Below, piece by piece: positions 34,286-47,262 of a stretch of DNA of 64,000 nucleotides. Location: positions 186,001-250,000 of the forward strand of contig NC_014962.1 of NCBI RefSeq assembly GCF_000186345.1. Direction: 5' to 3'. A program made the position numbers and the translations under genes. Position 1 is the stretch's first letter, and the number at the start of each line of letters is the position of its first letter. Under the pieces are notes generated by a model that made no database searches, had not been told where the DNA came from, and worked only from the letters and a program-made list of their open reading frames with translations. The DNA is from Isosphaera pallida ATCC 43644. Lineage in GTDB: Bacteria > Planctomycetota > Planctomycetia > Isosphaerales > Isosphaeraceae.

Positions 34286-37200
34286 TTAGGGACGGCGGAG
34301 TGTGGTTCGCACCGGGCGATCGGCGACGACCGCCACCCCCAGGGTCGAGCGGGACGCGTCGTCGTTAGCCTGGGGCGAACGCTTGAGGATGAGGGTCAGG
34401 TCGGCCACTCGTCCGGCGGGCAGTTCCAAGGTGGTTTCGGAGTGAGGGTCAAGCGTCAGGGGCTGGCCATCGAGCGCGACGGCGACCCTCCAACCCGGCC
34501 CATGATCCAACACGAGGCGGGCTGTTTGGACCCCCGGACTGGTCAGGCCCACCCGCAACGTCACGCTTCGCGCAGCGTCGGGTTGATTGCTATTGGGGTT
34601 GGTGGCCCAGAGGCTCGACAGGTCAAAAAGACCTTCGACATTGGCGGTCAGACGGTTGACCGACGATGCATCGTTAGGTTCGACCACCTCCAGTTCGCCG
34701 ACCACGGCGACGGTTGCGGTCAGGCTAGAAAGGTATTCAAGCAAATCGACAATCGCCTGGTCGTCCCATTGGTCGAGCAGACCCTCGGGCATGAGTGAAA
34801 CGTCGCTTTGGGAGCGTTCCTCGATCTCGGCGACGGGGATGGTGATGCGTCGGCCGTCGGCGGTTTTGAGAATGAGCCGTTCGGCGCTGTCTTCGACCGG
34901 CAGGCCAGAGAGGATCTGACCATCGTTGAGGGCGACGACCACGGTGCGGTAGTTGTAGCCAATCGCCTCGTTGGGGGCGAGGATGTGCCGAAGCAGGTCG
35001 GCCTTGGCATATTTGACGCCGATGGTCGAGAGGTCGGGACCGATCCACTCGCCCTTGCCTTGGACCCGGTGGCAGCCAGCGCACGCCTGCGAACCAGCGA
35101 GGAACTGGGCGCGGCCGCGTTGGGCGTCGCCGTTACGGGCGGCCAGCTCGATCAGGTCGGAGAAGTCGCGTCCCTTCGAGGCGGATGCGGGCAGGTCGGC
35201 GGCAGCCCGTTGACGCATTCGAGGATCGGGATGCGACGCCAGGATCAGCCGCGCTTCGCCGATCAACTCGCTGGGCAAAGCTTGGGTTCGTCCCAGGTCC
35301 AGAATCGTGTCGATCCCTTGCTGGAATCCGGCGAGGCTCTTGAGCGCTTCGCGGCGTAGACCCAAAGGCAGATTCTCATCGGTCAAGAGGTCGCGGAGAC
35401 GATCGCGGGCCTTTTCGGGCGAATCGGCCAGCCGGATCAACGCCCGCGCCGAGGCGTCGGCCAGGGGATTGGAGGCCGATTGTCCCCGGGCTCGCTCCAG
35501 AGCCTCTTCGACTAGGGGCCGAGCGGTCTCGGGACTGAGACGGGCCAGGGTCTCTAGCGCGTCGGCGCGAAGCTCGGGATCTTGACCGCCGATAAGGTCG
35601 ATTAGAGTGTTGACATAACGAGGTGATTTGGTGGCGGCGATGAGCTTGAGGGCGTCGCCCCGCAGCGAGGGGGTGGCCAGCGCGCGAGTGATCAGGTCGG
35701 ACACCGCCTGATGGTCGCGGGCGGCTCGCCAGTCACCTCCGAGTTTGGAGGCGAGGGTGGCGATGGCCGAGCGGGCGCGGTTCGGGTCGGTTGTCAGATC
35801 GTTGGTGGCCAAACGTGCCAAACGAACCCCGATCGCGGGGTCGGACGCGCGACCGAGAATCTCCTCGGCGACGCGACGAAGCGCGGGATGGTCCAGACTG
35901 GGCAGCACCTCGGCGACCCAGGCGGCCGTTTCGGCGCGGTTGAGCCGCCAGGCCAGGCCGAGGCTTCGGCTCAGAGGGGTGACGGGGCCGAACTGGTCTT
36001 CGGGGGTCAGATAAGCGTCGTTGCGATCGGCGGGGAAGTAGGGGGGCAGGGCCACGTCGCCCTGGCGGGCGGTTTGCTCCAGGTCGAGCGGGCCGAAGAC
36101 GCCGCCGGCTCCCGAGCGGGGATCGCCCAGCAGGTCGGTGATGAAGGCCGGTTCGCGGTGTTGAAGCGCTAGTCCGAGGGCTTCGAGATACCAGCGGTCC
36201 TGACCATCCCAGGAGGCGGTCAAACGTCGCAACGCCTGGCCGACTTTGCCGCCGTCGTGGTTGGTGGGCAGGTCGCGCAAAGCGAGAATCACCTCTTTAC
36301 GCACGCCGGCGTCGGGGTCGTCCACCAGGGTCAACAGGTCGTCCAGCCGTTCCAAAGCGCGAAGGGGCCGTTGGGCTTCGGGGCGGGTGAAGGTCACATC
36401 ACCCATTCGACTGACATCACGGCCCAAAATTCGGGCCGCTTGTTCACGCACGCGGGGGTCGGGGTCGTTGGCGAGGGTCACGGCGGGGTCGAGTCCGTCG
36501 ATGCGGGTCCAGACCCAGAGTGCCCGAGCGCGTTCGATCGGCGAGCCATTGAGCGCGAGTTGGGCGACAGTGGCGCAGGCAGCCGGCCCCTGGGCGACCA
36601 GCGCGCGGGCGGCCGCGTCCTGGGTGGCGGTCACCGGCGACTTGAGGGCCGCGAGCAGGCCGTCGGGCGTGCCGAAGTCGTGCGAGGGCCGGGAGGGTTG
36701 CCAGCCCTTGGGAGCGACCCGATAGATGCGTCCCGTGGTCTGATCCTGGAAGGCGTGGCCACCCACGCCGCCGTCGTACCAGTCGGCCACCAGCGCCGAG
36801 CCGTCGTGGTCAAGCGTCACATCGACCGGACGGAACCACGGGTCGTCGCCGCGCAACAGGGTCTCGCCGGAGGTGGTGCGATACGTCGCGCCCATACGAG
36901 TGAGTGGAAAGACGTTGATCTGTCGGGTGCCGGCCTCGGCCTCCAGCAGCGCGCCCAAGAACCGGTCCCCCAGCGCGTTGGTTTCGCAGACCCGCAGACC
37001 GCAGGGGGAGCCGTTGCCGGTGCCGACTAGCTTGGGCAGGTTGCCGGGCACTTCCTCGCCCCAGTGACGAGGGGAGCCCGGGGTACGATAACCGTAAGAG
37101 CCGCCGTCGAAGACATGAATGATTCGGCATCCCTGGCGGCCGTCGTCGTCGTTGTCCGACACGAACATGCCACCGAACGAATCGAGCGCGATCTCGTAAT

Positions 37201-37969
37201 TGTTGCGTTGACGGTCGGCGATAATCTCGAATTCGGTGCCGTCGCGGTTGACCCGAAGCGTGTTGGCCAGTTGATCGCTGCGGACGTGCCGCCCCGAGTG
37301 GTCCACCACGTCGAAGTTTTGGGTCTTCTGCGACTTGTCGGGCTGGACCGAGCAACAGCCGTCGCCGTGGGTGAAATAGAGCTTGCCATCGAGTGCCAGG
37401 ACCATGCCATGCACACCGTGGTCGGAGTCGATCCCGCCAAAGCCGGTCAGCAACGGCTCGATCCGGTCGGCCTTGTCGTCCCCATTCGTGTCTTCGAAGA
37501 CCATCAGGTTGGGGCTGTTGCCAACGTACACCCGACATCCGAGATAACGGCCGTGGTCGTCGTAGCGTTCTTCGACCGCCAGACCCATCGGGACCGGGGT
37601 GATTCCTTCGGCGAAGACCGTCACCTTGTCGGCCCGGCCGTCAAGGTCGGTGTCTTCGAGGATTTTGATGCGATCCGCCCCGTGCTGACGGACAATCTCG
37701 CCCTTTTCGTTGCGGTAGAGGCGGTAATTGAGTCCCTCGGTGACCCAGACCCGGCCTCGGGAATCGACGTCGATGTTGGTGGGGTTGACCACCATCGGCT
37801 CGGCGGCGAACAGGATGACTTCTAGACCCTCGGCAGGCTTGAGGGTCGTCACAGTTTGTTCGGGAGGCATCTGGGCGCGGCAGACCGCCGGCCCTCCGTT
37901 CCAGGACCCACTGAACGAGCCAACGATCAGACCCAGAACCAGCAGCGCGATCAGGGCACGCGGCGACAT
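34286..37969 (-). CDS. PVC-type CxxCH cytochrome with beta-propeller and HEAT-like repeats
   Basis: 1227 residues from the ATG at 37969, nine bases after GGAG; the frame extends to 38116. A signal peptide (ALIALLVLGLIVGSFSGS) is followed by a propeller-like domain (about 35-400: NPTNIDVDSRGRVWVTEG, EDTDLDGRADKVTVFAEG, DDDGRQGCRIIHVFDGG). Helical HEAT-like repeats with DPDPRVREQAARILG and DPDAGVRKEVILAL fill about 400-930. A cytochrome c-type haem site ACAGCH lies near 960 with KGEWIGPDLSTIG after it. A beta domain ends the protein. This architecture is abundant in planctomycetes and probably serves periplasmic oxidation of sugars or related compounds; the substrate is unknown. Confidence 0.92.
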   Translation of the reverse strand: MSPRALIALLVLGLIVGSFSGSWNGGPAVCRAQMPPEQTVTTLKPAEGLEVILFAAEPMVVNPTNIDVDSRGRVWVTEGLNYRLYRNEKGEIVRQHGADRIKILEDTDLDGRADKVTVFAEGITPVPMGLAVEERYDDHGRYLGCRVYVGNSPNLMVFEDTNGDDKADRIEPLLTGFGGIDSDHGVHGMVLALDGKLYFTHGDGCCSVQPDKSQKTQNFDVVDHSGRHVRSDQLANTLRVNRDGTEFEIIADRQRNNYEIALDSFGGMFVSDNDDDGRQGCRIIHVFDGGSYGYRTPGSPRHWGEEVPGNLPKLVGTGNGSPCGLRVCETNALGDRFLGALLEAEAGTRQINVFPLTRMGATYRTTSGETLLRGDDPWFRPVDVTLDHDGSALVADWYDGGVGGHAFQDQTTGRIYRVAPKGWQPSRPSHDFGTPDGLLAALKSPVTATQDAAARALVAQGPAACATVAQLALNGSPIERARALWVWTRIDGLDPAVTLANDPDPRVREQAARILGRDVSRMGDVTFTRPEAQRPLRALERLDDLLTLVDDPDAGVRKEVILALRDLPTNHDGGKVGQALRRLTASWDGQDRWYLEALGLALQHREPAFITDLLGDPRSGAGGVFGPLDLEQTARQGDVALPPYFPADRNDAYLTPEDQFGPVTPLSRSLGLAWRLNRAETAAWVAEVLPSLDHPALRRVAEEILGRASDPAIGVRLARLATNDLTTDPNRARSAIATLASKLGGDWRAARDHQAVSDLITRALATPSLRGDALKLIAATKSPRYVNTLIDLIGGQDPELRADALETLARLSPETARPLVEEALERARGQSASNPLADASARALIRLADSPEKARDRLRDLLTDENLPLGLRREALKSLAGFQQGIDTILDLGRTQALPSELIGEARLILASHPDPRMRQRAAADLPASASKGRDFSDLIELAARNGDAQRGRAQFLAGSQACAGCHRVQGKGEWIGPDLSTIGVKYAKADLLRHILAPNEAIGYNYRTVVVALNDGQILSGLPVEDSAERLILKTADGRRITIPVAEIEERSQSDVSLMPEGLLDQWDDQAIVDLLEYLSSLTATVAVVGELEVVEPNDASSVNRLTANVEGLFDLSSLWATNPNSNQPDAARSVTLRVGLTSPGVQTARLVLDHGPGWRVAVALDGQPLTLDPHSETTLELPAGRVADLTLILKRSPQANDDASRSTLGVAVVADRPVRTTLRRP

Positions 37970-38386
37970 GAGGGAGGTCTCCGTGAGGAGAGAGGGGCGG
38001 GAAAGGTCAAGAGGGTCGAACCCGCTCCGCCCAATCTGGGGTGGGACGAATGAAAAACGCCAAACAAGCAGAGGGCGGGCGACACGACCAAGCGGGCGGA
38101 AGGTGGGTGAAATCACCCAAATTGTCGCCGATCGGCCCGGCGGTGTCCAGCGGGGTCAGTCGGTGCCCAGCGGGATGACTTGGATCTTGGTGGGGCACCG
38201 GAACCGAGATCGTGCCAGTATGATTCAATGATTGATTGTTTTTCATATATATTAATGAAATGATATGCTCTGAGTGCACATCACCAAAAGACAGAAAAGT
38301 AGAGTCAACTTCAATTTCTAGGAGTATTATTCATGACTACCAACTCGTGGTTGATATTGAAGGTTCACCGTCGAGTGGGGACTGAT
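37970..38386. other. Intergenic region upstream of the cytochrome gene
   Basis: No credible gene. An AT-rich stretch at 38220-38330 separates the cytochrome gene from truA. It is the likely promoter area for the cytochrome gene and includes the inverted repeat at 38241-38260. Confidence 0.4.
38241..38260. promoter_or_regulatory. AT-rich inverted repeat upstream of the cytochrome gene
   Basis: TTTCAT at 38241-38246 mirrors ATGAAA at 38255-38260 around ATATATTA. It could be an operator or part of a promoter. AT-rich sequence makes chance repeats common. Confidence 0.25.
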
Positions 38387-42290: not shown

Positions 42291-43253
42291 TCAGGCCAAC
42301 GTGAAGCGACCAGGATCATCCCCGAGAAGGCCCAGCCGCAGGGCGGCGAACAGGGTGGCGGCCACGAGATCGGCCGTCGCGCCGGGGTTGCGGGCGTGAC
42401 CGTCGGCCCTCAGCCAGGCGTCAAACCCGCTTAGCGATAAGCGTGCTTCCGAGCGGTCAGGCCAACCGGACTCCAGAACTTCGCGCGCGCGTCGGGACGC
42501 CTCCAGCGCCACGCTGAGGCCCCGTTTGCGTTGAATGAGGGTGTCGGGGAAGGCGGCTTGCCAAGCCAAAGCGTTGAGCGTGATTGCCTGGGGCAGGGGA
42601 CGACCCCGTTGGACGTCGCGCGCAAGACGCGGCAAGCCGAACGCGAAGAGGTCGGCGAACCGTTCGGAATATTGCCGAGCGATGGCATCTCGATGCGAGG
42701 CGGCCCGCATAGCCTGATCCAACGACGCGGTGGGACCCGATGGCGTAGCGCAGGTTACGTCGAAACCTTCGGGTAGGCCGTAATCCTCCCCACGGCCCAG
42801 GCCGCCGGGTTGGGCACGGCGGATCGCCTCGAAGATCGCCGCGGCGTCCTGCTCGTTGGCGTGATCCAGCACCCGACCCACTCCCTCGGCGAGGTTTTCC
42901 CCCGTGGGGACTAGGGCCAGCGGCGCGATCAGCAGCAGGATGCCGAGGTTGGTGTTGGTGGCGACCACCCCGCGGGTGGCGACCACCGCGTCAAGAACCA
43001 ACCGCCCCAACCCCAATCCTAATCCCAACCCACCGCGTGGGTTCTCGGGAAGTGTCGGGTGGTCGAGCCGGGCGAAGATGGGCTCGATCGCCGCAGCGCT
43101 TCGGAGGAAGTCGTCATACGTCAGGTCGTCGAACCGCGCGTGGGGATGGACGTTGCCTGGTTTGAAGGCGGTCGCTTCCCACTCGCAGGCCAAGCGAGCG
43201 GCCCGGGCGATCGTCAAGGGATCGCGGACGGTCCAGTTGGAAGAGATTTTCAT
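42291..43253 (-). CDS. CitG/MdcB-like triphosphoribosyl-dephospho-CoA synthase family protein
   Basis: 320 residues from the ATG at 43253; a TTG at 43271 would add six. Family features are ACEWEATAFKPGNVHPHARFDD near the N-terminus (shown in part, KPGNVH), TNTNLGILLLIAPLAL (about 108-123), a central EDYGLPEGFDV and the C-terminal NPGATADLVAATLFAAL. CitG makes the citrate lyase prosthetic group precursor, but no citrate or malonate lyase genes are here. Members of this family also occur in the tetrahydromethanopterin-linked C1 gene sets of methylotrophs and planctomycetes, and the ATP-grasp gene 40 bases upstream fits that setting. The exact substrate is unknown. Confidence 0.85.
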   Translation of the reverse strand: MKISSNWTVRDPLTIARAARLACEWEATAFKPGNVHPHARFDDLTYDDFLRSAAAIEPIFARLDHPTLPENPRGGLGLGLGLGRLVLDAVVATRGVVATNTNLGILLLIAPLALVPTGENLAEGVGRVLDHANEQDAAAIFEAIRRAQPGGLGRGEDYGLPEGFDVTCATPSGPTASLDQAMRAASHRDAIARQYSERFADLFAFGLPRLARDVQRGRPLPQAITLNALAWQAAFPDTLIQRKRGLSVALEASRRAREVLESGWPDRSEARLSLSGFDAWLRADGHARNPGATADLVAATLFAALRLGLLGDDPGRFTLA

Positions 43254-43293
43254 AGGGTGCGAATCAATCAACCCATCAAACGAATGGCGATAG

Positions 43294-44241
43294 TTAAGGC
43301 GTGGGAGCCTGTTGGGGCGCGAGGCGCGGGGTTTCCCGCAACGCTTCCAGAATGAAGGCGGCGACGTCGAGCCGCAAGCACGCGCCTAGCGCGCGCCAAC
43401 CGGGGGCGGCGTTGACTTCGGGAATGACCCAGCCGTGGGGGATTCCGCCCAACGGCAGGAGATCGACCCCCGCCAGACGTGCTCCGACCGCCTCAGTCGC
43501 GCGGATCGCTAGACGTTCGGTTTCGGCGTCCACATGGAATGGCTCAGCTGTGCCGCCGGTTGAGACGTTAGCGCGCCAGTCGTGGGACGCGGGAAAGCGG
43601 CGAATCGCACCGACGACGCGAGCGTCTAGAACGAACACGCGAACGTCCCAGCCTGGCCCCGCGACGAAGCGTTGCAGATAGAGAAGCCCCTGGGTCGCTT
43701 CGATCGCGGCGAAAGTGCGACGCGCCAGTTCACGCTGGCCCACACGGATCAACCCTCGTCCCTCCGAGCCGAACAGCGGTTTGACCACCACCTCGCCGCC
43801 CAGACGGTCGAAGGCGTCGAGCGCCTCGCGGGAGGTTTCGCCCACCCAGGTCTCTGGCGTGGGCAATCCGGCCGCTTCGAGTCGAACCAGGGTAAGGTAT
43901 TTATCCACCGCGGTTTCAATGGCGCGGGGCGGGTTGAGGATCGGGGTTCCGGCGGCTTCGACCCGTCGCAGCGCGTCCATGCGGAAGACGATCCGCTCCA
44001 AAGACGAGGAGGGCATGGCGCGGACTAGAACTCCGGCGACCTCCGGGCCGGTGAGTTCCCAGCCGTCGGCCTCGACCCGACCGGGCCGTCCCAGTGGCGC
44101 GATGGTGGCGCGAAGGCGTTGGAACTCGACCGGCTCGAATCGAAGGTTCAAACGGGCGGCGGCGCGGGCGAGGTCGCGCACATGCCAACCCCATCTGCCC
44201 GTCCTGGTACGCCCGGCCAGAGCCAGGAGAGGGGGAGTCAT
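43294..44241 (-). CDS. RimK-like ATP-grasp ligase
   Basis: 315 residues from the ATG at 44241, overlapping the kinase stop in ATGA. ATP-grasp features: KYLTLVRLEAAGLPTPETWVG (residue about 113 on, shown in part), VVKPLFGSEGRGLIRVG (ATP-binding Lys and Gly-rich loop), LLYLQRFVAGPGWDVRVFVLD (about 190), AIRRFPASHDWRANVSTGG and the metal-binding VIPEVNAAPGW. It is RimK/LysX/MptN-like, so it probably ligates an amino acid such as glutamate to a carboxylate. With the CitG-like gene downstream, a role in coenzyme (H4MPT- or F420-type) tail synthesis is an attractive inference, not shown. Confidence 0.88.
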   Translation of the reverse strand: MTPPLLALAGRTRTGRWGWHVRDLARAAARLNLRFEPVEFQRLRATIAPLGRPGRVEADGWELTGPEVAGVLVRAMPSSSLERIVFRMDALRRVEAAGTPILNPPRAIETAVDKYLTLVRLEAAGLPTPETWVGETSREALDAFDRLGGEVVVKPLFGSEGRGLIRVGQRELARRTFAAIEATQGLLYLQRFVAGPGWDVRVFVLDARVVGAIRRFPASHDWRANVSTGGTAEPFHVDAETERLAIRATEAVGARLAGVDLLPLGGIPHGWVIPEVNAAPGWRALGACLRLDVAAFILEALRETPRLAPQQAPTP

Positions 44242-47177
44242 CGCCGCGAGCGACCTAACACCACGCCCGCAACCGCCAAGCCCAGGGCCAGGCCGATCGA
44301 GATCGCCTCAGGCTTCAACCCCAAGCGAGGACCGGCCAGCGCCACCAGCGCCGCGGGCACTACGAACAGGGCGATGCGCACGCCCGAGAAGAATGAGGAA
44401 ACGATCAGGATCAGACCGGCGACGCCGGTGCCCAGACCGTTGAACCAACGGGTGAGCGCCTCGGGCACGCCGGGCAGCTTGAGCGGTTGAACGGTGCCGT
44501 CCTCCAAGCGTTTGCGAACGAGGGCGGCGACCCGTTCGGCCTCATCCCGCGCCAGTTGGGCTGCTTCGCGGGCCGTTTCGGTGGTCACGGTTTGGACGGG
44601 ATCGTCGGTTTGAACGATCGCCTCGACTCGTTCGCTCACCGCGGCCGCGTCGGGCAGCAGGTTGTTTTGGCTCATCCAGAGGAAGAAACCAATGAGGATG
44701 AGGGTACCGACCAGGAACCGGGTCGAGGGACCGACCAGGAGCCGGGCCAATTGGTCGAGCCGACTGGGACGATCGGCGTCGGGGTCGAACCGTCCCATGC
44801 CGAACGAGGTCTTGGATTGAGCCGCGAGGCGGTCCAAGGCGGTTTTGAAGTCGCTGGGTCCGGCGAGCGTCGCGGCGGATCGGGTTGCGCCGGCGCGCTC
44901 GGCCTCGGCGCGGGCTTGTTCGGCCTGGCGGCGGTATTCCTCGGCCAGGGCGACCATCGCGCGGGCGGTGCGCTCGGCCTGGCGGACGGCCTCGTAGAGG
45001 TCTTTGCCTTCGTCAAGCAGGCGGGCTTTCTCGACATCCACCAACAGCGCCTGGTCGCGTCGTTGACGACGCTTCAGCTCGCGGCGATCCAGCCAGGTCA
45101 TCAACCGATCACGCCAAGGGGCGAAGCGGGGCCGCGGCCGTCCGCCGGTGGCGGGCAACGCGCCGGGGCGGGCCTCCAGTTTGGCCGTGTAGCCGAAGAG
45201 TTCCTCGAAAACCTCCTCCCAGGCGTCGCCGGCGTGGTCGCGGACGAATTGGCGAATCCGGTCCTCGTCGAGTCCACGCAGACGCATCCCTTTGAGCGTG
45301 TTTTCCAGGAGGGTCAACGATTCGTGGCGTTGGTTGCGCAACGGTATGTCGATGAGGAAGACGTAAGCCAGCGCGGCGGCGATCGCGTACAAGCCAAAGC
45401 CGATGACGATCCCGGTCAGTTTCAGAACGGAGACGGCCACTGCCAAAGTCAGCAGAGCCAGAGCCAGGTTGATCGCTTCGCGCCAGGAGAGGTTCCACAG
45501 GTCAGCGCGTAAACGTCGTCCCAGATCGGAACGTTTTCGGATGGTTTGAATGACGAGGAAGGCCAACCAGGTGGCGGGAATGGCCATGAGGAAGCCCAAA
45601 GCGCCTCGGTAGCCGCCGGCCATCAACGTGAGGGCGGCCATGCCGAGGTTGAAGGCGAGGAACCCTAGGACCGCCGGGGCGCGATAGGCGCGGGCCGGAG
45701 CGGCCTGGAAGTCGGCAACGGCCGCTTCCAGGTCGGCGACCTCCTGGGCCGTGGGACCGGTGGGGCGTCCCAGTTGGGTTTGCAGGAACCGCTCCAAATC
45801 GGCAATGAGGGCGGTGGTGTTGGGATAACGATCCTCGGGACGCTTGGCGACCATCCGGTTGAGGATCGCGTCGAGTTCGGGCGGGGTTTGAGGCAGGGCT
45901 TTGCGCAGGGGGGGGAACGGCGCGTGGGCGTGTTGCGAGACGAGTTGGGCGAAGGTGGTTCCAGTGAAGGGCGGCCGCCCGGTCAGAAGAACGTAGAGCG
46001 TGCATCCCAATGAATAAATATCAGCGCGGGCGTCCACCTTCGAGGCATCTTCAGCCTGTTCGGGGGCCATGAAGCTGGCGGTCCCCATCGCTCCGTGCGC
46101 AAGAGTCAGCGGTTCGGTTCCTTTGACCAGGGCGTCGAGCGGAGAGGTGGGGGCTTGAGAACCACTCGGCGTGGTTGGCGAACTCGTCGAGTCGTGGGAG
46201 GTCTCGGTTGCGGTGGGGGCCGGTTCGTAGTCGTCGGAGGGGCGACCGGTTTTGACCAGGCCGAGGTCGGCCACCTTGAGGATGCCGTAGTCAGTCAGAA
46301 GTAGGTTGGCCGGTTTGATGTCGCGGTGGACCATGCCCTGACGGTGGGCGAATTCCAGTCCCCGCGCCGCCTGAAGGATCAGACCAACCGCTTCGTTGAC
46401 TGGCAGAGGACCCCGGCGGCGGATCAACTGATCAAGACTTTCGCCATTGACGTACTCCATGCTGAAGAACCGGATCGAGCGGTCTTCGCCGAAGTCGTGG
46501 ATTTGAACGACGTTGTGATGGCTCAGTTGGGCCGCGGCATAGGCTTCACGCACGAAGCGGGCCAGAAACCGAGGGTTGCGGGCCAGGTCAGGGCGCATCA
46601 CCTTAAGCGCGACGGGGCGATCCAGCGTGATCTGACGCGCCAGGTAGACTTGGCCCATGCCGCCGCGTCCCAAGAGTTTGAGAACGCGGTACCCGCCTAG
46701 GGTGGCCAGACCCTCGGGAGTGTCGCCATGCGAGGAAGGGGTGGCGTCGGTGAGGGCGCTTCCCGTCGCTTCGCCGACCGAGTCGGAGTCGCCCAACGGA
46801 TCGACTCCGCCGGTCAGACCGGGGATCGACGAAGCGGCCCGCAACGGCGACGAATCCGCAACCGGGTTCGATGCGGCCGCAGGGTTGGAGTTCACCGCGT
46901 ACCCCAGGGAGTCCCCCGCGCCGACTTGCGGGGAGGCCGCTGCGGAGACCGTTGCAGTGGCCGCGGGGCGGTTGGCCGCGGTAGCGCTCGCTGGAGCGAC
47001 ACTCGGTTCAGTCTCCAACGGCTCGACCTTCACGTTCCAGGAGGGTTCGGTCCCCGACACGGTTAGCCTGAAGGTCCGCCCGCACTTGGGACAGGTTGGC
47101 TTGAATTGTCCCGCGCGCAGGCGTGAGGGGCGAATCACCGCGCTGCAGTAGGGACACGTTAGGGTGATCGCGTCCAT
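44238..47177 (-). CDS. Membrane Ser/Thr protein kinase with N-terminal zinc ribbon
   Basis: 979 residues from the ATG at 47177; the longer frame to 47354 lacks family features. A zinc ribbon opens the protein (TCPYCSAVI to CPKCGRTF, about 6-37), then an Ala/Ser-rich linker. The kinase domain (about 160-475) has GRGGMGQVYLARQ, VALKVM (Lys), the catalytic loop HRDIKPANLLL, DLG in place of DFG, and FMAPEQAED. Two hydrophobic regions near 510-560 and 585-625, a helical charged segment, and C-terminal spans (about 835-855 and 930-975) follow. It is a planctomycete PknB-type sensor kinase; its target is unknown, but coupling to the ATP-grasp gene is striking. Confidence 0.93.
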   Translation of the reverse strand: MDAITLTCPYCSAVIRPSRLRAGQFKPTCPKCGRTFRLTVSGTEPSWNVKVEPLETEPSVAPASATAANRPAATATVSAAASPQVGAGDSLGYAVNSNPAAASNPVADSSPLRAASSIPGLTGGVDPLGDSDSVGEATGSALTDATPSSHGDTPEGLATLGGYRVLKLLGRGGMGQVYLARQITLDRPVALKVMRPDLARNPRFLARFVREAYAAAQLSHHNVVQIHDFGEDRSIRFFSMEYVNGESLDQLIRRRGPLPVNEAVGLILQAARGLEFAHRQGMVHRDIKPANLLLTDYGILKVADLGLVKTGRPSDDYEPAPTATETSHDSTSSPTTPSGSQAPTSPLDALVKGTEPLTLAHGAMGTASFMAPEQAEDASKVDARADIYSLGCTLYVLLTGRPPFTGTTFAQLVSQHAHAPFPPLRKALPQTPPELDAILNRMVAKRPEDRYPNTTALIADLERFLQTQLGRPTGPTAQEVADLEAAVADFQAAPARAYRAPAVLGFLAFNLGMAALTLMAGGYRGALGFLMAIPATWLAFLVIQTIRKRSDLGRRLRADLWNLSWREAINLALALLTLAVAVSVLKLTGIVIGFGLYAIAAALAYVFLIDIPLRNQRHESLTLLENTLKGMRLRGLDEDRIRQFVRDHAGDAWEEVFEELFGYTAKLEARPGALPATGGRPRPRFAPWRDRLMTWLDRRELKRRQRRDQALLVDVEKARLLDEGKDLYEAVRQAERTARAMVALAEEYRRQAEQARAEAERAGATRSAATLAGPSDFKTALDRLAAQSKTSFGMGRFDPDADRPSRLDQLARLLVGPSTRFLVGTLILIGFFLWMSQNNLLPDAAAVSERVEAIVQTDDPVQTVTTETAREAAQLARDEAERVAALVRKRLEDGTVQPLKLPGVPEALTRWFNGLGTGVAGLILIVSSFFSGVRIALFVVPAALVALAGPRLGLKPEAISIGLALGLAVAGVVLGRSRR

Positions 47178-47233: not shown

Positions 47234-47262
47234 ACGTCATCCCATGTGTCACGGGATGACGT
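47234..47262. promoter_or_regulatory. Perfect inverted repeat between divergent kinase and EVE genes
   Basis: ACGTCATCCC at 47234-47243 and GGGATGACGT at 47253-47262 form a perfect 10-bp inverted repeat with a 9-base spacer. It sits 57 bases upstream of the kinase start and about 200 upstream of the EVE gene. It suits an operator for a dimeric regulator, or a leader hairpin of the kinase transcript. Confidence 0.45.

Follow-up and report, generated by a model that had tools for sequence, protein, structure and literature searches.

This study concerns two adjacent genes, coding for a RimK-like ATP-grasp ligase and a CitG-like protein, which follow a Ser/Thr protein kinase gene in a 64,000-nucleotide stretch of the genome of Isosphaera pallida ATCC 43644 (contig NC_014962.1, positions 186,001 to 250,000). 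This whole stretch is called the window, and its own numbering is used below unless another contig is named. Judging from their sequences, the ligase and CitG-like genes are almost certainly orf5 (myfB) and orf7 of the tetrahydromethanopterin (H4MPT)/methylofuran gene cluster. The overall explanation considered probable is that the pair is a displaced piece of this ancient cluster, that the kinase is unrelated to it, and that Orf7 takes part in pterin ribosylation. The displacement is suggested by the family identity of the two proteins, the mch-myfB-orf7 order found in relatives and the pathway genes found in the own genome. The two genes belong to a module that is already known, and what is uncommon is their location.

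All three genes run on the minus strand, in the order kinase, ligase, CitG-like gene. The kinase gene (44238-47177, with its start codon at 47177) encodes a protein of 979 residues, and its TGA overlaps the ATG of the ligase gene in an ATGA at 44238-44241. The ligase gene (43294-44241; 315 residues) was assigned to MyfB/Orf5 by Pfam, NCBIfam, gene order and a phylogenetic tree. The CitG-like gene (42291-43253) was assigned to Orf7 by Pfam, motifs and predicted fold; it encodes 320 residues if the ATG at 43253 is the start, with 40 bases between the two genes, or 326 residues if it is the TTG at 43271, with 22 bases between them. Coordinates and Pfam matches bear out the arrangement described in a first-pass annotation of the same DNA, that is, a run of kinase, ligase and CitG-like genes with the ATGA overlap, the 40-base gap and a 979-residue kinase.

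The gene order in relatives was informative. Among 31 CitG loci of Isosphaeraceae, the own one included, 30 matched the window CitG-like protein, and all of these 30 had the ligase gene next door; the other one (L003, genome G012) matched neither window protein and was of the MdcB type by NCBIfam cut-offs. The pairing of ligase and CitG is not due to chance. Neighbourhoods of 17.5-20 kb were read for 18 of 45 Isosphaeraceae genomes, one locus each (L036-L053). In 17 of them mch was at 1.5 kb or less from the ligase gene, fhc genes were likewise present in 17, and in all 18 a QueD-like gene came after CitG, at the place where Proteobacteria have fae; the family assignments of mch, fhc and the QueD-like gene in these loci were confirmed. 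This QueD/6-pyruvoyl-tetrahydropterin-synthase-like gene downstream of CitG may supply pterin for H4MPT. On proteobacterial plasmids, a CitG relative was found in 33 records, and the four that were opened all displayed the order mtdB - ATP-grasp (MyfA-like) - mch - RimK-like - CitG - fae, with the ATP-grasp gene annotated as a hypothetical protein in one record and the RimK-like ligase in another. Considering 80 CitG-profile loci from bacteria and archaea, a homologous ligase was present in 13, with mch directly upstream in nine of these 13, which include those of Thermofilaceae (L104) and Odinarchaeota (L151). Three contigs of metagenome-assembled genomes from Acidobacteria, Rokubacteria and Gemmatimonadetes (L111, L130 and L134) showed the mch-ligase-CitG order plus much of the H4MPT/methylofuran cluster.

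The order mch-orf5-orf7-fae-fae-orf17 is given for Methylosinus trichosporium in PMC3615186, so that orf7 follows orf5 there as the CitG-like gene follows the ligase gene in the window. The CitG nature of that Orf7 is deduced from its position, the CitG family having been seen in the opened plasmid records, and, while M. trichosporium orf7 lies beside mch-orf5, the CitG-like gene of the window lies away from mch. The cluster order outside I. pallida is fhc - mch - myfB - orf7 - fae, or the same with a QueD-like gene replacing fae.

Concerning the own genome (5,529,304 bases, two contigs), it carries the H4MPT/methylofuran C1 (one-carbon) gene set, located elsewhere than the pair. On contig C2, fae was found at 1449446-1449919 (249 bits), with an mtdB-like gene beside it (tblastn), mch at 467770-468717 (380 bits) together with fhcC (195 bits; of the fhc genes, the search of this genome covered fhcC), and an RFAP synthase homolog at 4457887-4458615 (119 bits, cut-off 113.5). 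The view of the first-pass annotation that ATP-grasp and CitG genes belong to C1-cofactor clusters is sustained by these pathway genes and by the mch-ligase-CitG order in relatives. In the own genome the ligase gene adjoins the CitG-like gene but not mch, and the C1 pathway genes are far apart, whereas relatives keep fhc, mch, ligase and CitG together. This difference suggests that the cluster broke up in this lineage, where the pair would have been split from mch and ended behind the kinase gene.

The same annotation had seen in this arrangement a coenzyme synthesis under kinase control. According to this interpretation, the kinase would sense a membrane or redox signal and control the ligase and Orf7 by phosphorylation, thereby regulating coenzyme synthesis. 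The location on the same strand and the ATGA overlap suggest co-expression, and a control of expression could matter, since the glutamate chain length is set in Methylorubrum extorquens by the expression level of MyfB (PMC8141765). Against this, a kinase homolog ahead of the ligase-CitG pair was found in none of the 18 related loci, which means that the three-gene order is not conserved; in two of them (L040 and L049) a kinase domain gave a distant match, located some 4 and 6 kb away from the ligase gene. In addition, kinase homologs sit elsewhere: the C-terminal half of the kinase has homologs in 20 of the 45 Isosphaeraceae genomes, the own one counted, several of them matching across the kinase domain and the C-terminal part with 39-44% identity. 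Ten loci around kinase homologs, each at most 20 kb long, were searched for C1 genes and had none, and, besides the kinase, a single window gene (34286-38116) was matched there, in one locus only. The adjacency of kinase and ligase was found in the I. pallida genome alone. The control of coenzyme synthesis by the kinase is thus without comparative support and seems unlikely. The simplest reading is that of a separate planctomycete kinase with a local adjacency to the C1 pair, the kinase-led operon being most likely a local rearrangement. It can be said with good probability that the kinase is incidental to the pair, and most likely it would do its own, unrelated job. The pair would presumably be co-transcribed and translationally coupled with the kinase gene, as the ATGA overlap makes coupled translation of kinase and ligase likely.

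Concerning the ligase, it matched Pfam RimK (PF08443; E-value 2.9e-25, 89 bits) and passed TIGR00768 (184 bits, cut-off 143), which places it in the RimK-type ATP-grasp fold family. The candidate role of an S6-modifying RimK was ruled out by profile scores, as the protein reached 79 of the 331 bits needed for PRK10446 (RimK), with 670 bits for the E. coli RimK control, and by the ligase tree. In this tree (38 rows, with 13 of the 18 Isosphaeraceae loci sampled), the window protein fell inside the Planctomycetota mch-linked set with 100/99 support, and all the mch-linked ligases were grouped, with modest support (81/84), apart from LysX and from E. coli RimK, which forms a long branch. The ligase goes with mch-linked MyfB-type ligases and not with E. 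coli RimK, and H4MPT pathway genes are present, so that neither of the observations named by the first-pass annotation as refuting its reading was made.

The gene orf5 was renamed myfB in M. extorquens, its product being a glutamate ligase that extends the polyglutamate side chain of methylofuran (PMC8141765). The window ligase resembles MyfB in that it is a RimK-type ATP-grasp protein, in that the copy of the relatives and of proteobacterial plasmids comes after mch and before the CitG-like gene, and in that a ligase in the MyfB gene position shows the same NCBIfam profile pattern; this likeness is one of gene position and of profiles of relatives, the sequence of M. extorquens MyfB lying outside the comparison. 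Unlike the myfB gene elsewhere, that of the window is away from mch and fae, behind a kinase gene. By analogy with the characterized relative, the window ligase would be MyfB and would extend the polyglutamate chain of methylofuran, which carries formyl groups for Fhc. Another possibility is an MptN-type enzyme (H4MPT:alpha-L-glutamate ligase), for which the pterin, and not methylofuran, would be the acceptor of glutamate. MptN is the nearest named equivalog model and the best NCBIfam match of the window ligase (208 bits), and an archaeal mch-linked ligase (L104) reaches 275 bits with it. However, the score is under the cut-off of 350, an Azospirillum ligase in the MyfB gene position also gives 210 bits with MptN (54 with RimK), and methylofuran is the substrate of M. 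extorquens MyfB (PMC8141765). An MptN-type activity of the window ligase is therefore doubtful.

Concerning the CitG-like protein, it matched Pfam CitG (PF01874) over profile positions 1-283 of 284 (E-value 6.7e-64, 217 bits), and it has the core motifs KxG, NxxxG and PGxxAD in common with E. coli CitG, which is annotated as making triphosphoribosyl-dephospho-CoA. Both features would favour a true triphosphoribosyl-dephospho-CoA synthase (CitG/MdcB) serving citrate or malonate enzymes. Against the CitG/MdcB equivalogs TIGR03125, TIGR03132 and NF002315, however, the protein scored 31.5 bits or less, far under the cut-offs of 272-282, while the positive controls E. coli CitG and L003 cleared theirs. 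The role in citrate or malonate enzymes was consequently rejected, as improbable in the extreme. The predicted structure (from 42291-43271; mean pLDDT 86) superimposed on Archaeoglobus fulgidus 3h9p, itself a putative member of CitG/MdcB, with Z 22.9 and a root-mean-square deviation of 2.2 over 220 residues. Below 3h9p, many of the fold matches were ADP-ribosylhydrolases (ARH1, ARH3, DRAG; Z 2.7-4.0), enzymes acting on ribosyl bonds, a suggestive hint at a common fold that is too weak to be used.

In the reaction of CitG, ATP is the donor, adenine leaves and the triphosphoribosyl group is moved onto a hydroxyl. H4MPT has a ribofuranosyl group on ribitol and, to our knowledge, the enzyme adding it has not been assigned. 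By analogy, CitG chemistry would fit the formation of the ribofuranosyl-ribitol bond. RFAP synthase catalyses the first committed step on the way to H4MPT (PMC6787355), and the distributions of CitG-like and RFAP synthase genes were compared. Among 195 Planctomycetota genomes, mch was present in 33, CitG over its cut-off in 34 (those 33 and G180), and the 33 genomes with mch were also those with an RFAP synthase homolog; 19 of these homologs clear the family cut-off, and the counts leave out three CitG matches of 20-21 bits and three RFAP synthase matches of 20-26 bits. Among 14 control genomes, five had CitG, namely E. coli and four archaea; these four archaea also had RFAP synthase, whereas mch was missing from Sulfolobus. 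According to PMC3261824, the folate analogue of the Sulfolobales combines features of tetrahydrofolate and methanopterin.

In the 151 Thermoproteota genomes, CitG was found in 72, RFAP synthase in 62 and both in 58. RFAP synthase presence was defined here by a hand-set threshold (E-value of 1e-15 or better); some match at 1e-3 occurred in 108 genomes, those excluded being mostly near 20-30 bits. The 115 Thermoproteota genomes without mch comprised 42 with both genes, two with CitG only, two with RFAP synthase only and 69 with neither. The CitG and RFAP synthase genes were 10 kb or less apart in 11 Thermoproteota genomes, hand-picked from coordinates rather than computed over all. Finally, 28 of 32 CitG genomes, hand-chosen from the 80 loci, had a strong RFAP synthase match. 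These counts treat genomes as independent, ignoring relatedness, so that the Fisher p-values computed for them should not be read literally, and some CitG counts may include MdcB-type enzymes, which PF01874 also picks up (as with L003). The co-occurrence even without mch indicates that CitG-like genes track the aryl-ribitol pterin, rather than methylofuran or C1 enzymes as such. It is rather probable, then, that Orf7 acts on the pterin side.

The opposite view, that Orf7 serves methylofuran and not H4MPT synthesis, together with its neighbour MyfB, draws on the tight linkage to the ligase and on orf17 of the same cluster, which proved to serve methylofuran (PMC8141765). Against this view stand the 42 Thermoproteota genomes with CitG and RFAP synthase but without mch. 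Moreover, methylofuran is not known to contain ribose, which leaves CitG chemistry with no evident place in its synthesis. A role of Orf7 in methylofuran synthesis is thus improbable, although somewhat less so than the control by the kinase or an MptN-type ligase.

Several observations weigh against the explanation of the pair as a displaced piece of the cluster, with an incidental kinase and an Orf7 that ribosylates the pterin. CitG also adjoins the methylofuran ligase, so the neighbourhood alone cannot separate the two coenzymes. A strong RFAP synthase match was missing from four of the 32 hand-chosen CitG genomes and from 14 of the 72 Thermoproteota CitG genomes, 12 of the latter with mch, and eight of the 36 Thermoproteota mch genomes were without CitG. 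Haloarchaea carry both CitG-like and RFAP synthase genes and yet are said to use folate (PMC8305020), which implies either a different acceptor in these archaea or some other reason for the pairing. To these are added the MptN model as best NCBIfam match of the ligase, and the ATGA overlap, which can be taken as functional coupling of the kinase with the pair. The twelve Thermoproteota genomes that have mch and CitG while lacking a strong RFAP synthase match (G271, G284, G292, G316, G322, G344, G370, G376, G391, G397, G400 and G412) may use another first enzyme for the aryl-ribitol unit.

The RFAP synthase co-occurrence, together with the conserved CitG motifs and fold, suggests that Orf7 adds a ribosyl unit to the aryl-ribitol pterin. 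Orf7 would retain CitG-type chemistry, with ATP as donor and release of adenine, and would transfer the (tri)phosphoribosyl group to a hydroxyl of another acceptor. The likeliest acceptor would be the ribitol hydroxyl of pterin-aminophenyl-ribitol, formed after RFAP synthase, and the product would provide the ribosyl-ribitol part of H4MPT or dephospho-H4MPT. That Orf7 is a ribosyl transferase is a tentative proposal, to which we give somewhat less than an even chance. Its extension to both Orf7 of the mch cluster and the archaeal relatives is slightly more tentative still: all of them would transfer the triphosphoribosyl group of ATP to the aryl-ribitol pterin, freeing adenine, and the triphosphate would then be used (archaea) or removed (bacteria). 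In archaea, it could be the activated form that joins 2-hydroxyglutarate via a phosphodiester, as compared with the CitX step of citrate lyase; in bacteria, it would be taken off to give dephospho-H4MPT. A link between CitG and methanopterin was not found in the literature listings, where the coverage of subscription papers is thin, and it may have been published.

Concerning the kinase protein itself, its Pfam Pkinase match had an E-value of 1.9e-45 (156 bits), and its best NCBIfam model was PknB_PASTA_kin (307 bits, under the cut-off of 450). Like PknB-like Ser/Thr kinases, it has a kinase domain with HRDIKPAN, APE and GRGGMG motifs. It differs from them in an N-terminal zinc-ribbon-like part with two CPxC motifs, CPYC and CPKC (47082-47156, minus strand), in a C-terminal membrane region, with several hydrophobic segments in that half of the protein, and in that the NCBIfam equivalog cut-offs are not reached. 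Upstream of the kinase gene, about 57 bases before its ATG, there is a near-perfect palindrome (47234-47262; 13 pairs with one G-T, a 3-base loop, fold z-score -6.1). It comes on the minus strand just after a sigma-70-like site (47294-47265), the single one in the promoter scan, with 0.3 expected by chance. Its sequence makes the palindrome resemble an operator, or else a hairpin in the leader.

The main value of these results is in the broad co-occurrence of CitG-like and RFAP synthase genes, in Planctomycetota as well as in archaea without mch. Proteins annotated in these organisms as triphosphoribosyl-dephospho-CoA synthase are probably misnamed. Orf7 becomes a concrete candidate for one step in the synthesis of H4MPT, which serves as coenzyme in methanogenesis and in much of methylotrophy.

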